Shown here: in pieces, positions 1 through 32,475 of the stretch
Numbering within the stretch: the first letter of the stretch is position 1
Layout: each line of letters opens with the position of its first letter
Source: Oscillospiraceae bacterium
Lineage (GTDB): Bacteria > Bacillota > Clostridia > Oscillospirales > Oscillospiraceae
DNA: 32,573 bases
NCBI GenBank assembly: GCA_017406005.1
Contig: JAFQZI010000038.1
Span: forward strand, 1-32,573
Reading direction: 5' to 3'
The notes under the pieces: model-generated
Database searches by the model: none
What the model was told of the DNA's origin: nothing
Seen by the model: the letters and a program-made list of their open reading frames with translations, nothing else
Translations under genes and position numbers: made by a program

Positions 1-429
1 CAGGCCGAAGGTTCCGCTGCCCATGCTGCGGGCCGCTTCGATCTTTCCATCCTCCACGCCTGAAAGCGCAACCTCTACCTGTCTCGTATAAAACGGGACC
101 GTTCCGAATACAAGAGGCAGAATGGCGCCCTTCACATTGATTGCAGTACCTACCACTGCCCTTGTCAGCGGGATCAGAAAAATCAGCAAAATGATAAACG
201 GGATGGAACGGAAGACGTTGATAACCAGGTTCGTCACCTGATAAACCAGCAAATTCTGGCGGATTCCGCCCTTCTTTGTGATCACCAGAATGATGCCGAA
301 ACAGAGCCCAATGGCGAAAGCGATCAGCCCCGCCTTGTAAAACATCTGAAATGTCGCACTGCAGGCGGTGAAGAATTTTGTCCGATAGGTATACAGATAA
401 GGCGCAATGCTTTTAATCCACTCTGCCAT
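1..429 (-). CDS. metI: Methionine ABC transporter permease MetI, partial (C-terminus off the left edge)
   Basis: This is the membrane permease of a D/L-methionine ABC importer of the MetNIQ type. The first 143 codons are present and the gene runs off the window. The visible protein begins MAEWIKSIAPYLY, followed by hydrophobic membrane segments around residues 28-48 and 68-88, and near the window edge a stretch EAARSMGSG that matches the EAA loop contacting the ATPase. The ATG at 429 lies inside the end of metN (17-bp overlap), so translation is probably coupled. MetI proteins are usually about 215-230 residues, so roughly 75-85 residues are missing. Gene order on the minus strand is metQ, metN, metI. 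The methionine assignment rests on MetN (NIL domain), the NlpA-family binding protein and the Met-rich leader upstream. Confidence 0.9.
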   Translation of the reverse strand, partial: MAEWIKSIAPYLYTYRTKFFTACSATFQMFYKAGLIAFAIGLCFGIILVITKKGGIRQNLLVYQVTNLVINVFRSIPFIILLIFLIPLTRAVVGTAINVKGAILPLVFGTVPFYTRQVEVALSGVEDGKIEAARSMGSGTFGL

Positions 430-1492
430 CTTTCAGCACCTCCGTTCTGACATGACTCTCCTCGAGGAAACGCATCCCGGCTTCCAGTTTTTCCGGGGGC
501 CCGCTGAGGATGCCGATGGTACCGCCGAGCGGATTGCCGTGCAAATATTCCACGTTGGCAAGAATGATGTTGAGATCGATCCCGTAACGCTGTGCCATCG
601 TTGTAAGAATATGCTCTCCTACGCAATCCTTCAGGAAGGTCGTTTTCACAAGAACCTCGCCGGGCCTGAGCTGCGTCAGGGAAGAATTGCGCGCAATCAT
701 TTTATCGATCTTCCCCAGAGGTGATGCCGAGGCGATAAACTTGCGTGTGATAGGTGCCTGAGGATCGGAGAAAATATCGTACACAGTGCCTTCTTCCACA
801 ATTTTTCCGTCTTCCATCACCGCAACACGGTCGGCAATAGATTTGATGACTGCCATTTCGTGTGTTATAATCACAATCGTGATGCCGAGCTTGCGGTTCA
901 GGTCTTTCAACAATGAAAGGATAGACTCCGTAGCATCGGGGTCCAGCGCGCTGGTGGCCTCATCGGACAGGAGGATTTTCGGGTTGGCTGCCAGCGCACG
1001 CGCGATGGCGACCCGCTGTTTCTGCCCGCCGGACAGCTGTGAAGGAAATGTATCGATCTTATCTGTCAGATCCACAAGTTCCAGAAGCTCTTTTACACGT
1101 CTGGCGATCTCCGCTTTGGATCTGCTGGTGTATTTCAGCGGATAGGCAATATTGTCAAATACGGAAGAACGTTCCAACAGATTGAAGTGCTGGAAAATCA
1201 TCCCGATTCCTCGGCGCATCTGGTTTTGCTGACGGGCTGTCATCTGTTTGCCCTGATAGTACGGAACCCCGTTTCGAGCCTCGATTCCCTGATAGTCGCC
1301 GATGGAAATCGTACCCTCATCCGGTACTTCCAGCAGGTTCAGGCACCGCACAACCGAGCTTTTCCCCGCCCCCGAATAACCGATTATACCGTATACTGCG
1401 CCGTCGTCAATGGAAAAGGAAACATCATCGACTGCGATGACGTCTCCGCTTTTTAAATGATAAGTCTTTTTCAGGTTTTTAACTTCAATCAT
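413..1492 (-). CDS. metN: Methionine ABC transporter ATP-binding protein MetN
   Basis: This is the cytoplasmic ATPase that powers methionine uptake through MetI. The 359-residue protein has a Walker A motif GYSGAGKSS (about 38-46), a Q-loop IFQHF (99-103), the ABC signature LSGGQ (153-157), a Walker B segment ILLSDEATSALDP (173-185) and the switch histidine in ITHE (209-212). Residues about 275-350 form the C-terminal NIL/ACT-like domain typical of MetN, which in studied homologues binds methionine and inhibits transport when the internal pool is high. Length fits the family (about 340-360). The gene follows metQ after an 85-bp gap containing a hairpin and overlaps metI by 17 bp. The start ATG at 1492 is the natural family start (MIEVKNLKKTY). 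Confidence 0.95.
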   Translation of the reverse strand: MIEVKNLKKTYHLKSGDVIAVDDVSFSIDDGAVYGIIGYSGAGKSSVVRCLNLLEVPDEGTISIGDYQGIEARNGVPYYQGKQMTARQQNQMRRGIGMIFQHFNLLERSSVFDNIAYPLKYTSRSKAEIARRVKELLELVDLTDKIDTFPSQLSGGQKQRVAIARALAANPKILLSDEATSALDPDATESILSLLKDLNRKLGITIVIITHEMAVIKSIADRVAVMEDGKIVEEGTVYDIFSDPQAPITRKFIASASPLGKIDKMIARNSSLTQLRPGEVLVKTTFLKDCVGEHILTTMAQRYGIDLNIILANVEYLHGNPLGGTIGILSGPPEKLEAGMRFLEESHVRTEVLKDGRVD

Positions 1493-1577: not shown

Positions 1578-2486
1578 TTATGCTGCGATCTGTCCAGCAG
1601 CTTCTTTGAGGGCTTCCAGAGAATCAAACTTCTCGGAATAGAGTGTCAGCGGAGCGATGAGCGTGTCGCCGATGGCAACGAGATCATATCCATTGGCAGT
1701 GGAGTCATTTTTCAGATATGCCTTATGCTGGAAGGCGTTGAGGTCGATTTCTCCGGAATTGAGGGCTTCGTTCGGCAGATTGTAAGCATCGAACTCTACC
1801 AGCTCAATGTAAATGCCTGCATTTTCATCGTCCAGAACCTTCTGTACGGCCTGCCACTGATCATTTGCCGAGCCGCACACACCGACCGTCACAACCTGCT
1901 TGCCTTCTTTGGAGAAGACTGTCCCGGTAATTTCCTGTGCCTCTTCTTCCGTCAGGGTGATATTTGCATCATAGTCAAACACGGGGATCTGGGCTTCTTT
2001 TCTGGTGACGAGCAGGAACTCTGCCACAAGCTGCGTCTGATATGCCTCAACGACCTTCTTATACGTCTCGTTGTCCTCTTCTCCTGCACGAGCTACAATG
2101 ACGTTGATATACGGGTTGTCACTGCCTTCGCTCTGTTTCTCGCTGATGAGACCCTGCGATGGGAACAAGCCGTAAGGCACAGAATAGGTGCTGTTGATGG
2201 CAGAAGCTGCAAAGTCACCCAGCGTAGAGGGAAGGGTGTTTGCCTGCACGGGGGTAACTTCCACATCGTAGAGATAGCCGGTAATATCGGCAATTTCCGG
2301 AGTATAACCGGCTGCGGGGTCAACCGTGATCAGCCCTGCCGTCTCGAGCAGCTTGATGCCGCGGGAAAGGTTTGTGCCGTCATCGGGGATGCCGATCTGA
2401 AGGGTTTCTGCAAAGGCAGAACCTGCGAGAGAGAAAACAAGAACTGCTGCAAGAGCAATGGCAAAAAGCTTATTGGTACGTTTCAT
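1578..2486 (-). CDS. metQ: MetQ/NlpA-family methionine-binding protein with apparently circularly permuted domain order
   Basis: This is the extracytoplasmic substrate-binding protein of the adjacent transporter (302 residues). A signal peptide (1-26, ending LAGSAFA) is present but there is no lipobox cysteine; LAGS sits where LAGC would be expected. The mature protein starts at about residue 29 with LQIGIPDDGTNLSRGIKLLE, which in ordinary MetQ lies in the middle of the protein (compare VAVPNDPTNLGRSLLLL of E. coli MetQ). It continues through the usual C-terminal half (AINSTY, PYINVIVAR, VVEAYQ) to about 160. A linker of about 37 residues follows, then VVTVGVCGSAND...YIELVEFDAYNLPNEAL...DLNAFQHKAYL...DLVAIGDTLIAPL, which is the usual N-terminal half. 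The protein stops at SLEALKEAAGQIAA, just where the middle strand would begin. The start is supported by an AAGGAG Shine-Dalgarno sequence 8 bp upstream. A remnant of a tandem duplication is an alternative origin. Confidence 0.9.
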   Translation of the reverse strand: MKRTNKLFAIALAAVLVFSLAGSAFAETLQIGIPDDGTNLSRGIKLLETAGLITVDPAAGYTPEIADITGYLYDVEVTPVQANTLPSTLGDFAASAINSTYSVPYGLFPSQGLISEKQSEGSDNPYINVIVARAGEEDNETYKKVVEAYQTQLVAEFLLVTRKEAQIPVFDYDANITLTEEEAQEITGTVFSKEGKQVVTVGVCGSANDQWQAVQKVLDDENAGIYIELVEFDAYNLPNEALNSGEIDLNAFQHKAYLKNDSTANGYDLVAIGDTLIAPLTLYSEKFDSLEALKEAAGQIAA

Positions 2487-2673
2487 GATAAGTATCTCCT
2501 TAAATGAAATAAAAAATATAATATAATTTCCGTTAATCCGGATCGTTTATTGTTGCGGTATTCTCTGTTGATTTCGTCACATTCGCATTCGATCCGTCGC
2601 CCGGCCTGTATGCCAGAGCGTCCATTGTCTTTTGTTTTCTATTTCTTTTTTCATTCCAGAACTTCCTTTCCAC

Positions 2674-2716
2674 GAAAAAAGTAAAAACCGGGATGCCTGT
2701 TCTGGCTTCCCGGTTT
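2674..2716 (-). terminator. Intrinsic terminator (attenuator) of the metQNI leader
   Basis: On the plus strand 2685-2693 (aaaccggga) pairs perfectly with 2708-2716 (tcccggttt), and the stem is extended inside by gcc/ggc (2695-2697 with 2704-2706). In the minus-strand RNA the stem is followed by a U-rich tract ending about 2674. It lies between the leader-peptide stop codon and metQ, where it can abort transcription before the structural genes. Its 5' arm and loop overlap the antiterminator pairing with 2747-2759. Confidence 0.85.
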
Positions 2717-2759
2717 AAAGTTCTGAAAACAATCAAACTGGCTTAAGAAGCTGACAGGC
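2695..2759 (-). promoter_or_regulatory. Predicted antiterminator of the methionine attenuator
   Basis: In the minus-strand RNA the segment GCCUGU-CA-GCUUC (2759 to 2747, the last codons of the leader peptide) can pair with GAAGC-CAGA-ACAGGC (2709 to 2695). This gives 11 Watson-Crick pairs around a 2x4 internal loop. The second segment is the upper part of the terminator stem and its loop, so the two structures exclude each other. A ribosome stalled on the Met codons (last one at 2779-2781) leaves 2747-2759 free, while a ribosome at the stop codon covers it. The pairing is read directly from sequence; the regulatory logic is inferred from the classical trp/his/leu attenuators. Confidence 0.7.
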
Positions 2760-2844
2760 GGCAAACACAGGCGTGACTCATCATGCACATGTACATCCAC
2801 ATGCGCATAACAGGCATCATCATATTGCTGTGTCTGTTTGCCAT
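2743..2844 (-). CDS. Methionine-rich leader peptide of the metQNI operon
   Basis: A 33-codon ORF has ten Met codons: positions 1, 8, 9, 10, 13, 15, 17, 19, 21 and 22. It begins MANRHSNMMM and ends CRLSAS followed by TAA. A GAAAGG Shine-Dalgarno-like sequence lies 8 nt before the ATG, and the ORF begins about 32 nt after the predicted transcription start. It is followed by the antiterminator/terminator pair and then metQ. Its clustered regulatory codons, position and the downstream structures fit a ribosome-mediated attenuator sensing charged methionyl-tRNA. There is no homology-based support. The call rests on architecture, which is unusually complete. Confidence 0.85.
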   Translation of the reverse strand: MANRHSNMMMPVMRMWMYMCMMSHACVCRLSAS

Positions 2845-2882
2845 CGTTAGCAATCCTTTCAAAGTTTGATTTAACGAGTTAA

Positions 2883-2911
2883 AGTATAATCTTGCCTTCG
2901 TTTTTTGTCAA
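2883..2911 (-). promoter_or_regulatory. Sigma-A type promoter of the metQNI operon
   Basis: On the minus strand a perfect -35 hexamer TTGACA (2906-2911) is followed after exactly 17 nt by TATACT (2883-2888). The predicted start is near 2876, about 32 nt upstream of the leader-peptide ATG. Nothing in the 522-bp ftsH-metQ interval resembles a SAM-I (S-box) or T-box leader; it is accounted for by promoter, leader ORF, terminator and an unstructured-looking 200-nt stretch before metQ. Confidence 0.85.
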
Positions 2912-3008
2912 TTCTGAAAAATTCACAAAACCGCGCGCACCATTTTTGTAATATCCGTCTATCCTGCACAGTATATGCATATGTTCCTCAAAAGATCCGA
3001 GCTTCTTT

Positions 3009-4856
3009 TTACAATGAAACCAGTTTCTTTTCAGGCTCTTCTTTTGCATTGAGGATAGCCATGAACTCTTCTCCGGTGATAGTTTCATTTGCGTAGAGGT
3101 TCTCTGCCAGCTCATCCAGCTTTGCCCGGTTTTCACGGAGGATGCGGCTGGCTTTTTCATGCTGCTTTTTGACAAGCGCGACAACCTGACGGTCAATCTC
3201 CGTCTGCGTCTCCGCAGAACAGGTAAGAGAAGTATCCCCGCCGAGATACTGGTTTGTCACGGTTTCCATGGCAACCATATCAAAATCTTCGCTCATGCCG
3301 TAGCGCGTAATCATAGCGCGGGCAAGCTTTGTGGCCTGCTCAATATCATTGGCCGCTCCTGTTGTCACGGAACCGAATACCAGTTCTTCTGCTGCACGCC
3401 CGCCTGTGAAGGTTGCAATCTTGTTTTCGATTTCCTCTTTGCTCATGAGGTAGTGGTTGCCTTCTTCCACCTGCATGGTATAGCCCAATGCTCCGGAGGT
3501 ACGCGGCACAATGGTGATTTTTTCCACCGGAGCGGAATGGCTCTGCATGGCTGCAACAAGTGCGTGGCCGATTTCATGATAAGCAACAATCTTCTTTTCC
3601 TCATCAGTAAGAATGGCATTCTTCTTCTGATAACCGGCGATAACCACTTCAATACTTTCTTCCAGATCTTTCTGAGATACAAGGGAACGTCCGTCGCGGA
3701 CCGCACGGAGAGCTGCTTCGTTGAGGATGTTGGCAAGCTCCGCTCCCGAAGCCCCGGATGCCATGCGTGCGATCTTTGCAAAATCGACGGTATCTTCCAG
3801 TTTGAACTTCTTCCCGTGAACCTCCAGGATTTCCTCTCTGCCTTTTAGATCAGGCAGTTCAACCGGAACCCGTCTGTCAAAGCGGCCGGGCCGCGTGAGT
3901 GCAGGGTCGAGGCTCTCCGGCTGGTTGGTTGCGGCAAGAATAATGACGCCGTTATTGCTCTCAAATCCATCCATCTCCGTGAGGAGCTGATTGAGCGTCT
4001 GTTCCCGCTCATCATTGCCGCCATACTGGCCGCCTCGTTTTTTGCCGATTGCATCGATTTCATCAATAAAGACGATGCAGGGGGCTTTCTCTTTTGCCTG
4101 CCGGAACAGGTCACGCACCTTCGAAGCACCCATACCGACGAACATCTCTACAAATTCGGAACCGGAAATAGAAAAGAAAGGCACGTTTGCTTCACCGGCT
4201 ACCGCCTTTGCCAGGAGGGTCTTGCCCGTTCCCGGAGGTCCTACAAGAAGGATTCCTTTAGGCATAGATGCGCCGATATCCTTGTATTTTGATGGATCGT
4301 GCAGGTAATCTACAATTTCCGACAAGCTTTCTTCCGCCTCATCCACTCCTGCAACATCCGTAAATTTGATGCCTTCGGAAGACTTGACGTAGATCTTCGC
4401 GTTCGACTTTCCCATGTTGAACATCAGAGATCCCGGGCCGCCGCCTGCCTTGTTCATCATCTGGCGGGACAGAAACTGGCCCACCGCTACAAACAGCACC
4501 ACCGGGATTACCCAGCTCAGCAGCATAGTCACCAAAGGCGACTGTTCCTCGATAATCTCAGAGGAAAACTCCGCGCCGGCTTTGTACAGGCGCTCCGTAA
4601 GATTCGGGTCATCCATCAGCCCTGTGCGGTAAAACTCGGTCTCATCTTTGTTGGTAAAGATGATCCGGTTCGAGGTGATATCTACCAGGCCGATATCCCC
4701 TTCTTCCGTCATGCTCATGAAGGTGCCGTAATCCACGGTTTTTACCTGCTGATCCGAAAGCTTCGGCATTACAAACAGATTGAACAGCATGAGCAGGATT
4801 GCTGCGATACAGTAGAAATATGCCAGTGTTTTTTTAGGCCGTTTTACTTCATTCAT
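3009..4856 (-). CDS. ftsH: ATP-dependent zinc metalloprotease FtsH
   Basis: This membrane-anchored AAA+ protease degrades misfolded membrane and regulatory proteins. The protein (615 residues) has an N-terminal membrane segment (about 11-30), an extracytoplasmic domain and a second membrane segment (about 109-127). The AAA+ module has Walker A GPPGTGKT (206-213), Walker B IVFIDE (261-266) and the second region of homology with RPGRFDR (322-328). The peptidase domain has the zinc motif HEIGH (427-431) and a third ligand Asp in ANDIEQAT (about 504). The middle residue of the HExxH motif is Ile rather than the common Ala, which is within HExxH rules. Length is near the family norm (610-650). It appears monocistronic, with a CIRCE-overlapped promoter upstream, so heat-shock control by HrcA is likely. 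Confidence 0.97.
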
Positions 4857-6336: not shown

Positions 6337-7806
6337 TCAGTTACTTTCTGAATAGCTTTCCACTGTAATGGAATAAATGCCGGTTCCCTGAATCAGCACT
6401 GTTCCGTCTGCGCGAACGATAGAAACCGTATCGCCGTCCGCATCCGATATTGTCCCGCTGCAGATGAGCTCAGTCACCGCGCTGTCTCCCGTGACGATCC
6501 AGCTTGAGCTCTCATCAATCGTTATGCGGCAGGAGCCGCTTCCGCCTTCTCCGGCACAGGTCTCATCATCCAGCACGGCTCCTGTCAGGACGCTGCCTTC
6601 CGTAAGGGAAAGATCCAGAGTGGAGATGCTGTCCCAGAGGATGTCGCCGTCCATCTGCTGGCTGATTGCCGTAAAAATACAATCTGCGCCGTTGCTGCCC
6701 GTTTTGCCCCAGCCGCGCTGATTTGCATTGCCGGTGCAGCGGAGAAAGTACTCGCTGTCTTCGCTGCTTACAATCTCCACATTCCGAAGAGTGAAGACGC
6801 TCTCGATGTTTGTGGTGTAGAACAGCCCGCCGTTGAGGCTGACAAGCTTGCCTCCGTCCATCTCGAAGGAGCCCTGGCCGATTTGCGAATCCCCGCTCAT
6901 GCTCTGATAGAGGATAACCGTCCAGGTATTGTCATTCTGTTCCAGATCCGGCATATTGCCTGTCAGGGTGCAGTTTGTCATGCGCACGGAATTCAGCCCT
7001 TCGAGGCACAGTGCCTCAGACCCTGTTGCCGTAAGTTCCGCATCGTTGATCGTGATGTCTGCTGTCACATATACCGCAGGAGAACCGGAACCGTTTGAAG
7101 CATAGCTCCCGCCGTCAACAACCATGGTTCCGCTGCCCCTGTCAGAGCGGATAGCCGCCGAGGATGCTCCGTCCGTTGTGACGGTCAGATTCTTTGCATA
7201 CAGAGTTCCCCCTCCTGCAACGTGGATGCCTCCGGAGGTGCCCTGATGCGTGGTAATGACACTGTCGCTCACCGTAACAATCCCGTCTCCGTAGCTGAAA
7301 ACTCCGGCTCCGCCGGCAGCATCCGTCTCAATTGTGGCATCGGTTATGGTAAGATTTCCTCCGGTGGCCAGGATTGCAGATCCTACACCGTAAAAGCTAG
7401 AATTATCACCGCCGGTGGAATCATCCGAATTTCGGAAAACAGTAACACCGGATACGGTCACATTGCCGTCCGTAACAAGAATCCCGACTTCGTCTTTGCC
7501 TTCGGAATAAACAGAATCCGTCAGCACAGTATCTTCCGAAATCTCGACAAGTGCTTCGTATTCACCGGAAAAACTACTGTGTCCGCCGGGCATTCCGCCC
7601 GGGCCGCCCATCCCGTCAGGCGGTGTTTCCATTCCATCGGGAGGCATCCCGTCAGGGGGCGCTCCCATCCCTTCAGGCGGCATTCCGTCAGGACGATTGC
7701 CCATCCCTTCAGGGGACATTTGAGGTGGATTTTCCGCAGATCCAAACGTCTGGAATCCTGCGAGCATCAGGCACAAAGCTAAAACGATACTGATAAGTTT
7801 TTTCAA
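6337..7806 (-). CDS. Secreted protein with Pro-Asp/Glu-Gly-Met repeats and a right-handed beta-helix-like domain
   Basis: The 489-residue protein has a signal peptide (about 1-25, MKKLISIVLALCLMLAGFQT). Residues about 28-75 form a low-complexity tract of PPEGM/PPDGM/PGGM units. From about 80 to the end there is a long series of short beta-strand repeats rich in Gly, Asp, Thr and Ser (GNVTVSGVTV, GGNLTITDATIET, DGIVTVSDSVITT, GGTLYAKNLTVTT, TMVVDGGSY). This looks like a pectate-lyase-type beta-helix; the Cthe_2159-type carbohydrate-binding family is one candidate. No catalytic motif or wall anchor is visible. The start codon is TTG at 7806, fixed by AAAGGAG 8 nt upstream and by the signal peptide. 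It is divergent from the repeat protein and sigI-rsgI. A role in binding polysaccharide or metal ions at the surface is inference. Confidence 0.75.
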   Translation of the reverse strand: MKKLISIVLALCLMLAGFQTFGSAENPPQMSPEGMGNRPDGMPPEGMGAPPDGMPPDGMETPPDGMGGPGGMPGGHSSFSGEYEALVEISEDTVLTDSVYSEGKDEVGILVTDGNVTVSGVTVFRNSDDSTGGDNSSFYGVGSAILATGGNLTITDATIETDAAGGAGVFSYGDGIVTVSDSVITTHQGTSGGIHVAGGGTLYAKNLTVTTDGASSAAIRSDRGSGTMVVDGGSYASNGSGSPAVYVTADITINDAELTATGSEALCLEGLNSVRMTNCTLTGNMPDLEQNDNTWTVILYQSMSGDSQIGQGSFEMDGGKLVSLNGGLFYTTNIESVFTLRNVEIVSSEDSEYFLRCTGNANQRGWGKTGSNGADCIFTAISQQMDGDILWDSISTLDLSLTEGSVLTGAVLDDETCAGEGGSGSCRITIDESSSWIVTGDSAVTELICSGTISDADGDTVSIVRADGTVLIQGTGIYSITVESYSESN

Positions 7807-32022: not shown

Positions 32023-32096
32023 GCGGGTGTAGTTCAATGGTAGAACACCAGCCTTCCAAGCTGGATACGTGGGTTCGATTCCCATCACCCGCTCCA
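32023..32096 (+). tRNA. tRNA-Gly (anticodon TCC)
   Basis: The cloverleaf is complete: acceptor gcgggtg/cacccgc, anticodon stem ccagc/gctgg around the loop cttccaa, a T-loop ttcgatt, discriminator T, and an encoded 3' CCA (32094-32096). It is the only member of the cluster with an encoded CCA. Confidence 0.95.
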
Positions 32097-32115
32097 AGTG
32101 ACCTGCCTTAGATTT

Positions 32116-32189
32116 GCGCCAATAGCTCAGCAGGATAGAGCAACTGCCTTCTAAGCAGTAGGTCGGGGGTTCGAATCCCTCTTGGCGTG
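32116..32189 (+). tRNA. tRNA-Arg (anticodon TCT)
   Basis: Acceptor gcgccaa/ttggcgt has a G-U first pair. The anticodon stem actgc/gcagt encloses the loop cttctaa (anticodon TCT), and the T-arm has ggggg ttcgaat cccct. The discriminator is G. CCA is not encoded. Confidence 0.93.
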
Positions 32190-32202
32190 CTTTTTATAAT
32201 TT

Positions 32203-32276
32203 GGTGGGATTAGCTCAGTTGGTAGAGCACCGGATTGTGGTTCCGGGTGTCGTGGGTTCGAGCCCCATATCCCACC
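32203..32276 (+). tRNA. tRNA-His (anticodon GTG)
   Basis: Acceptor gtgggat/atcccac is preceded by the extra G-1 at 32203 opposite discriminator C, the identity element of tRNA-His. The anticodon stem ccgga/tccgg encloses the loop ttgtggt. CCA is not encoded. Confidence 0.95.
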
Positions 32277-32320
32277 CTCTAATTTGTTCAGTGTCGAGAG
32301 GTCGGCATTGGCGGAATTGT

Positions 32321-32392
32321 TGGGATGTAGTGTAAGAGGTAACACACCGGACTTTGACTCCGTCATTGTGGGTTCGAGTCCCGCCGTCCCAG
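32321..32392 (+). tRNA. tRNA-Gln (anticodon TTG)
   Basis: Acceptor tgggatg/cgtccca starts with the U1-A72 pair typical of bacterial tRNA-Gln. D-stem gtgt/acac and the anticodon loop ctttgac (TTG) are clear, and the discriminator is G. CCA is not encoded. Confidence 0.93.
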
Positions 32393-32402
32393 TTTAATAT
32401 CT

Positions 32403-32475
32403 GCCCCAGTAGCTCAGCAGGTAGAGCACCGCCCTTTTAAGGCGGGTGTCCGGGGTTCGAGTCCCCGCTGGAGCA
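32403..32475 (+). tRNA. tRNA-Lys (anticodon TTT)
   Basis: The anticodon stem ccgcc/ggcgg encloses the loop cttttaa (TTT). The T-arm is cgggg ttcgagt ccccg and the discriminator is A. The acceptor gccccag/ctggagc has a C3-A70 mismatch in an otherwise perfect 7-bp stem. CCA is not encoded. Confidence 0.92.

Follow-up and report, generated by a model that had tools for sequence, protein, structure and literature searches.

A candidate ribosome-mediated attenuator with methionine control codons upstream of metQNI in an Oscillospiraceae bacterium

The window analysed here is a stretch of 32,573 nt from an Oscillospiraceae bacterium (GCA_017406005.1, contig JAFQZI010000038.1), and the leader under study lies on its minus strand. 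Direct reading places a consensus promoter, TTGACA-N17-TATACT, at 2883..2911 (-), with TTGACA at 2911-2906, a 17-nt spacer and TATACT at 2888-2883. A Shine-Dalgarno sequence, GAAAGGA (2854..2860, -), precedes a short leader ORF, uORF1 (MANRHSNMMMPVMRMWMYMCMMSHACVCRLSAS; 2743..2844, -; ATG at 2844, stop at 2743), whose 33 codons include ten Met codons, the start among them, and three Cys codons located inside or directly past the Met run. The ATG is the likely start; the TTG start given in the ORF list yields a longer frame of 39 aa. The Met-codon cluster (2779..2823, -), recognized by reading, by comparison with relatives and by shuffling, is taken as the control codons, or region 1. When 2680-3010 was shuffled 5000 times with dinucleotides preserved, ORFs of up to 60 codons never contained more than six ATG codons, compared to the observed ten, and a loose filter for Met-rich frames passed one further short ORF in the whole window. 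An intrinsic terminator (the 3:4 hairpin; 2685..2716, -; -19.8 kcal/mol alone) is followed by a T-rich stretch. Promoter, Met-rich ORF with its Shine-Dalgarno sequence and terminator had each been claimed in an earlier note on this DNA, and each is found in the sequence. The ftsH gene, on the same strand, ends 98 nt ahead of the promoter, and metQ starts about 200 nt past the terminator. A second short ORF, uORF2 (MKKEIENKRQWTLWHTGRATDRMRM; 2577..2654, -), with the Shine-Dalgarno sequence GAAAGGA at 2670-2664, ends with CGA-AUG-CGA-AUG-UGA.

The genes downstream are metQ (1578..2486, -; MetQ model, 159.6 bits, cut-off 374), metN (413..1492, -; TIGR02314, E 1.5e-104, 349.8 bits, cut-off 499.7) and metI (1..429, -; PRK10782, E 1.1e-31, 110.2 bits, cut-off 212), the last truncated by the window end. 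All three fall under the curated cut-offs; judged by these matches, their products are clear relatives of MetQ, MetN and MetI, in agreement with the placement before metQNI that had been claimed. The window MetQ is a circularly permuted methionine-binding protein: positions 32-130 of E. coli MetQ (4yah) align to 198-296 of the query and positions 131-257 to 29-156. It has no obvious lipobox Cys. The term 'circularly permuted' was not met in the literature searched on MetQ. At another leader locus (L152, a 3265-base record), where metQ lies about 211 nt past the leader, MetQ begins with VDANYFQH and continues round to what is normally the N-terminal portion, and it seems to be permuted at a different point from the window MetQ. 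Elsewhere in the window are a gene whose product is predicted to be exported and carries PPDGM/PPEGM repeats close to its start (6337-7806, -) and a cluster of five tRNA genes at the window end (32023-32475, +).

Duplex and folding computations define two further leader segments. Region 2 (2747..2759, -), the end of the ORF, is the 5' strand of a predicted antiterminator, and region 3 (2695..2709, -), the 5' arm and loop of the terminator, is its 3' strand. The 11-bp antiterminator previously claimed between these segments is exact in its base pairs: GCCUGU (2759-2754) pairs with ACAGGC (2700-2695), and GCUUC (2751-2747) with GAAGC (2709-2705). The RNA from 2766 to 2693, which is the free RNA present when the last cluster Met codon is in the A site and the 3' arm of the terminator does not yet exist, folds at -21.1 kcal/mol into both antiterminator helices plus a lower stem. 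This nascent fold is by itself only modestly unusual (z -1.9; 9 of 200 shuffles equally good). For the entire leader (2876-2674), the computed fold has -70.4 kcal/mol (z -5.0), a value reached by none of 200 shuffles.

A MetQ search gave matches in 93 of 200 genomes of the family. Of 16 co-linear metQ relatives that were read upstream, a Met/Cys-rich ORF is present in 11, the window among them; the other five (L004, L007, L017, L018 and L019) have no Met leader. The 11 leaders share the core MMxMMEMCMxxMCM, and at a threshold of E<=0.01 a profile built from them matched 24 of 400 genomes in the family; reading confirmed every one of these matches as a leader. Six of the 30 family-profile loci (L057-L062) were dropped as lying inside other ORFs or having no ORF, and among the weaker rows, which span E 0.03 to 4.2, the two that were fetched, G174:C17 and G000:C133, both proved to be genuine leaders. 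In the alignment of 24 leaders, M1, M19 and C20 are invariant and three further Met columns are conserved at 90% or more; uORF1 residues other than Met and Cys are variable, as is the spacing of the cluster. At the level of the order, the 24-leader profile matched nine of 394 genomes, five of which, belonging to three other families, had not been met before; its sole match among 391 genomes of the class was the window's own. At E<=0.01, genomes that yielded no leader numbered 376 of 400 in the family, 385 of 394 in the order and 390 of 391 in the class. These profile searches show a genuine leader family with a patchy distribution, mostly restricted to one order, and the Cys codons belong to the cluster in many copies.

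A pattern scan, from which frames of more than 110 codons were skipped, returned at least 118 stretches, all of which were put through the leader scripts; a leader is present in 23 of them, among the matches listed. Leader-bearing relatives named among the matches listed are Oscillospiraceae, Ruminococcaceae, Faecousia, Ruminococcus and Clostridia, with Peptostreptococcaceae and Herbinix once each. L127, L131 and L153 were dropped as repeats of G109, G298 and G102. The set of leaders analysed below numbers 55. In a separate look at 13 stretches of viral contigs whose frames were read, only L271, a contig of a viral collection, has a leader-like frame, a Met leader containing MMMMQMCMGSMCMPRRTHF.

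A motif script placed 26 of the 55 leaders before permuted metQ, 15 before metN, eight before metY and one before a metQ of ordinary type, and left five unassigned. Two of the unassigned leaders (L078 and L138) precede permuted metQ on reading, so that permuted metQ follows 28 of 55 leaders and metQ, metN or metY lies downstream of 52 of 55. The leader at L079 precedes an AGCS amino acid carrier, that at L210 a polar-amino-acid ABC permease, and that at L151 (Herbinix) a peptidase, with a gene of the cystathionine synthase/lyase type third in line. Profile matches confirm metY, AGCS and the permease, and weakly the MetQ of a spirochaete described below. The window genome, an assembly with an estimated contamination of 6.62%, contains three leaders, before metQNI, AGCS and metY; the latter two lie back to back on G000:C133 (L063), from 921 downward and at 2400-2700. 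The metY and permease leaders, MYKASFICMMCCDMRCEMRVRFAIPI and MRKLSSSFMMCCDMCCEMHMRFVIPI, have four Cys codons each and four or five internal Met codons, which suggests that cysteine may be read too. Inverted repeats or half-sites resembling CCTAT..ATAGG surround the -35 box of the metQ or metY promoters at L047, L050, L217, L234 and L235, and are perhaps a repressor operator.

Similar leaders occur in other phyla. Among the matches listed, a Met-Cys leader stands before metY in two Acidobacteriota (L129 and L135) and in one MAG assigned to Anaerolineaceae; one Spirochaetales MAG (L194) has such a leader before metQ. The script found no terminator at L129 and a very weak one at L194. An exact pattern occurs in two of 120 Acidobacteriota genomes. 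An Acidobacteriota profile matched 23 of 119 genomes at E<=0.1; L279 is the leader of the query itself, and the reading covered 15 loci, with L292-L294, L296 and L299-L301 outside it. Six of the 15 (L280-L284 and L298) precede metY and the other nine do not. The further metY copies come from six genomes: L276 (the same as L282), L280, L281 (cut by a contig end), L283, L284 and L298. Together with L129 and L135, leaders before metY are found in at least eight Acidobacteriota genomes, seven of them within the 119-genome sample. These leaders have a Met-Cys run, and several end with RMR or QMR; little else is common with the clostridial form. GC-rich hairpins lie below the Met-Cys run at L129, L135, L276, L280, L281, L283, L284 and L298. 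In Chloroflexota, one of 101 genomes matched, the Anaerolineaceae query genome itself.

A hairpin followed by a T-run is found in 54 of the 55 leaders by a relaxed script, at only -2.1 kcal/mol in L194, and in 46 of 55 by a stricter script. The pairing between region 2 and the terminator arm was compared among 51 leaders (L129, L135, L173 and L194 being left out) by permuting the arms, a procedure that treats related leaders as independent. Cognate duplexes average -21.0 kcal/mol and non-cognate duplexes -16.5 kcal/mol, and none of 20000 permutations reaches the cognate mean. The cognate arm beats the row median in 49 of 51 leaders and is weaker in L033 and L034; it is the best of all 51 arms only in L078 and L098. 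With 32 non-redundant leaders the difference persists (-20.4 versus -16.2 kcal/mol; z -7.3; 0 of 50000 permutations). Against shuffled versions of region 2, the same number of leaders gives a moderate effect, with a mean z of -1.76, 16 of 32 leaders below -1.64 and the window at -1.54. A common form of the antiterminator pairs CCGAUGUGCUUUC with GGGAAGC..CAUCGG. The window pairs GCCUGU..GCUUC with GAAGC..ACAGGC, which has the two-helix layout of the common form in different letters.

The end of the ORF also appears to be conserved as RNA. The region 2 motif CGAUGUG is read in different frames, as FPMCF in L033, SDVL in L044 and SDVFS in L072, and lies past the stop codon in L046, indicating that it is kept as RNA. 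AUGUGCAUG is nearly its own complement, which leaves room for RNA structure as a cause of part of the MCM conservation. The earlier note had proposed examining related genomes for a conserved Met-codon cluster and for compensatory changes in both stems. Both comparisons bear it out: related genomes keep the cluster upstream of metQ, metN or metY, and, by the cognate duplex permutations, the two alternative stems change together between species. These comparisons point to a mutually exclusive antiterminator with coordinated changes across the family, the significance for any single leader being modest.

The spacing of these elements fits the dimensions of a ribosome. With the A site on the last cluster Met codon, the distance to the first paired base of region 2 has a median of 20 nt and is at least 13 nt in 43 of 51 leaders; 20 nt is about one ribosome front. 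On folding, the nascent RNA below a Met-stalled ribosome adopts the antiterminator in 53 of 53 leaders, and with the ribosome at the stop codon the terminator is formed in 53 of 53. The outcome of an attenuator is usually set while the last arm is still unmade. Once the RNA is complete, 42 of 53 leaders, that of the window among them, favour the terminator at equilibrium for every stall position tested, which means that the decision has to be made kinetically. In L051, L072, L074, L076 and L133, region 2 starts 41-47 nt ahead of the stop codon and would be poorly masked by a ribosome located there.

The window leader and its relatives combine a leader ORF and Shine-Dalgarno sequence, a cluster of Met codons, a terminator, a mutually exclusive antiterminator and a predicted stall and stop geometry, which are sequence features expected of an attenuator. 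It is highly probable, judging from sequence comparison and folding, that the element is a ribosome-mediated transcription attenuator that uses Met control codons and may respond to cysteine as well. With ample charging of elongator Met-tRNA, the ribosome would reach the stop codon and cover region 2, and the terminator would form. When charging of Met-tRNA falls, the ribosome would stall in the Met cluster, its leading edge halting just short of region 2; region 2, left free, could pair with region 3 once the latter is transcribed, and RNA polymerase would continue into metQNI. Without a ribosome, the leader would fold on itself and the terminator would form. The earlier proposal that the speed of translation through the Met codons decides between termination and expression of the transport genes is supported by the conserved cluster and the co-changing stems.

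Other explanations of the locus have to account for the same features. An arrest peptide, in which the ribosome is halted by the nascent chain, alone or together with a bound metabolite such as SAM, and not by hungry Met codons, would agree with the short core MCM, which is invariant or nearly so, and with the presence after uORF1 of a second peptide that has a conserved end. Against this, uORF1 residues besides Met and Cys vary along with the spacing of the cluster, the leaders of Acidobacteriota share little except the Met-Cys run, and the different frames in which region 2 is read in L033, L044 and L072 and its position past the stop in L046 argue that the ORF end acts as RNA; an arrest peptide is therefore considered improbable.

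It is still less probable that the hairpin is a mere ftsH terminator and the Met-rich ORF a product of chance or a metal-binding micropeptide. The proximity of ftsH on the same strand would suit such a terminator, and Met/Cys-rich peptides can bind metals. The leader has a promoter of its own, however, the set of ORF, terminator and antiterminator recurs upstream of met genes, and neither the excess of ATG codons over 5000 shuffles nor the cognate stem pairing is expected by chance. SAM-I and T-box leaders are the usual means of methionine control in Bacillota, and searches of the genome give two matches to SAM-I and four to T-box models (one above the cut-off), yet no Rfam match occurs at the leader or at nine loci including the window's own. 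One SAM-I precedes metK, and the T-boxes precede genes that are valS-, trpB-, binding-protein- and thrS-like as read from their translations. Regulation of the operon by a SAM-I riboswitch or Met T-box is accordingly the least credible of the alternatives, and next to no weight is given to it. Attenuation at Met codons is the reading retained.

The second ORF, uORF2, belongs to a family of its own. It is led by a Shine-Dalgarno sequence, lies 3' of the terminator and ends with CGA-AUG, which in most copies is followed by UGA, UGU or UGC; copies in close relatives end with L[VLI][RT]xN[FYW]RxGRM. In an alignment of 24 rows, R17 is invariant, and M1, L8 and M18 are conserved at 90% or more, so that uORF2 has the conserved C-terminal peptide characteristic of arrest peptides, as far as alignment can indicate. 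A uORF2 profile matched 34 of 245 class genomes at E<=0.05. The reading covered 31 of the 38 profile rows: 24 lie before metY and two before metQ, nearly all within 90 nt, and the matches at L252, L255, L257, L259 and L260 were judged to be chance. The other rows are G000:C133 (already known), G919, G946, G983 (twice), G877 and G769. In a separate profile search, the matches at L214, L216, L225, L226 and L229 were found to be chance when the loci were read, and the frame in G061 (L212) is broken by a stop codon; the weak loci L215, L219-L224, L227 and L228 stand outside this reading. No Rfam match was found in ten uORF2 loci and no NCBIfam match for three copies.

The terminal Arg codon of uORF2 is CGA in 50 of 50 copies, about half of which were first found via the letters CGAATG, with a script that favoured CGA where there were several Arg-Met pairs. 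Among 24 copies from protein-profile searches alone, which are without that bias, the codon is CGA in 24. An apparent CGG at Arg-Met in L041, in a set of 37 rows, was due to a misplaced motif; the actual Arg-Met codon is CGA. Elsewhere in these peptides, CGA accounts for 22 of 134 Arg codons, and the Gly preceding the terminal Arg uses all four codons. The constancy of the terminal CGA while other Arg and Gly codons vary suggests that both the peptide and that codon are kept. uORF2 stands directly before metQ even where metQ follows metI (L213 and L247), and it occurs with no Met-rich ORF within 500 nt upstream at L209, L211 and L217 (metY) and L017 (metQ). Pairing of uORF2 with the Shine-Dalgarno sequence of metY was seen by eye in L230 only. 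From its sequence and position, uORF2 is interpreted as a separate conserved leader peptide that recurs before metQ and metY in Clostridia, and its CGA-AUG may be a slow or arrest site.

A joint reading of the two ORFs can be offered tentatively and at somewhat less than even confidence. The supply of sulfur amino acids in Clostridia may be under two stacked translation sensors on one mRNA: the Met/Cys-codon attenuator, and then uORF2, whose invariant CGA-AUG, common to metQ and metY leaders over many families, would act as an inbuilt slow or arrest point, responsive to methionine (or to SAM or homocysteine) and controlling the final step ahead of metQ or metY. The same reading gives Met-codon attenuation an independent origin in Acidobacteriota, with Chloroflexota and Spirochaetota as possible further cases.

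Rfam, NCBIfam and the literature searched, most subscription papers lying outside that search, yielded no methionine attenuator, which makes priority tentative. Attenuation on methionine poses a difficulty: one synthetase charges both the initiator tRNA and elongator Met-tRNA, so starvation that stalls ribosomes at internal Met codons should also slow initiation at the leader. A natural family that seemingly attenuates on Met, with narrow spacing and coordinated stems, makes this initiation question testable. It would add a methionine control beside the SAM-I and T-box leaders in Bacillota, and the second ORF is indicative of a uORF, so far absent from catalogues, upstream of metY and metQ across many clostridial families.

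Ribosome-stalling attenuators are classical for trp, his, leu, ilv and thr. The leaders described here share with those systems a leader ORF with control codons, the 1:2, 2:3 and 3:4 pairings and an intrinsic terminator. Classical leader-peptide attenuators are named in PMC1262725 and PMC2965389, and PMC2965389, PMC1262725 and PMC8632094 together describe His, Cys, Trp, Leu and Phe leaders; the text of PMC10219788 contains no methionine-related terms. Within Bacillota, leader-peptide attenuation is shared with the His leader before hisS/hisZ in bacilli (PMC2965389) and with the Leu-rich attenuator peptide of S. aureus (PMC5794164), which differ in using His and Leu codons, respectively, and in the genes controlled. 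PMC1262725 describes Cys leader peptides in Actinobacteria that likewise are short ORFs with sulfur amino acid codons before sulfur genes, but these have no obvious terminator, and no conserved RNA structure is reported there before the methionine operons of Actinobacteria. The uORFC-8-2 attenuator of cysS in Rhodobacterales (PMC8632094) also shares ribosome-mediated attenuation, a run of sulfur amino acid codons and a terminator below; it differs in having Cys codons, cysS as its target and an alphaproteobacterial host, and methionine goes unmentioned in the text of that paper. Unlike the trp, his, leu, ilv and thr attenuators, the window family would use Met codons, together with Cys, as control codons, and its targets would be methionine transport and metY.
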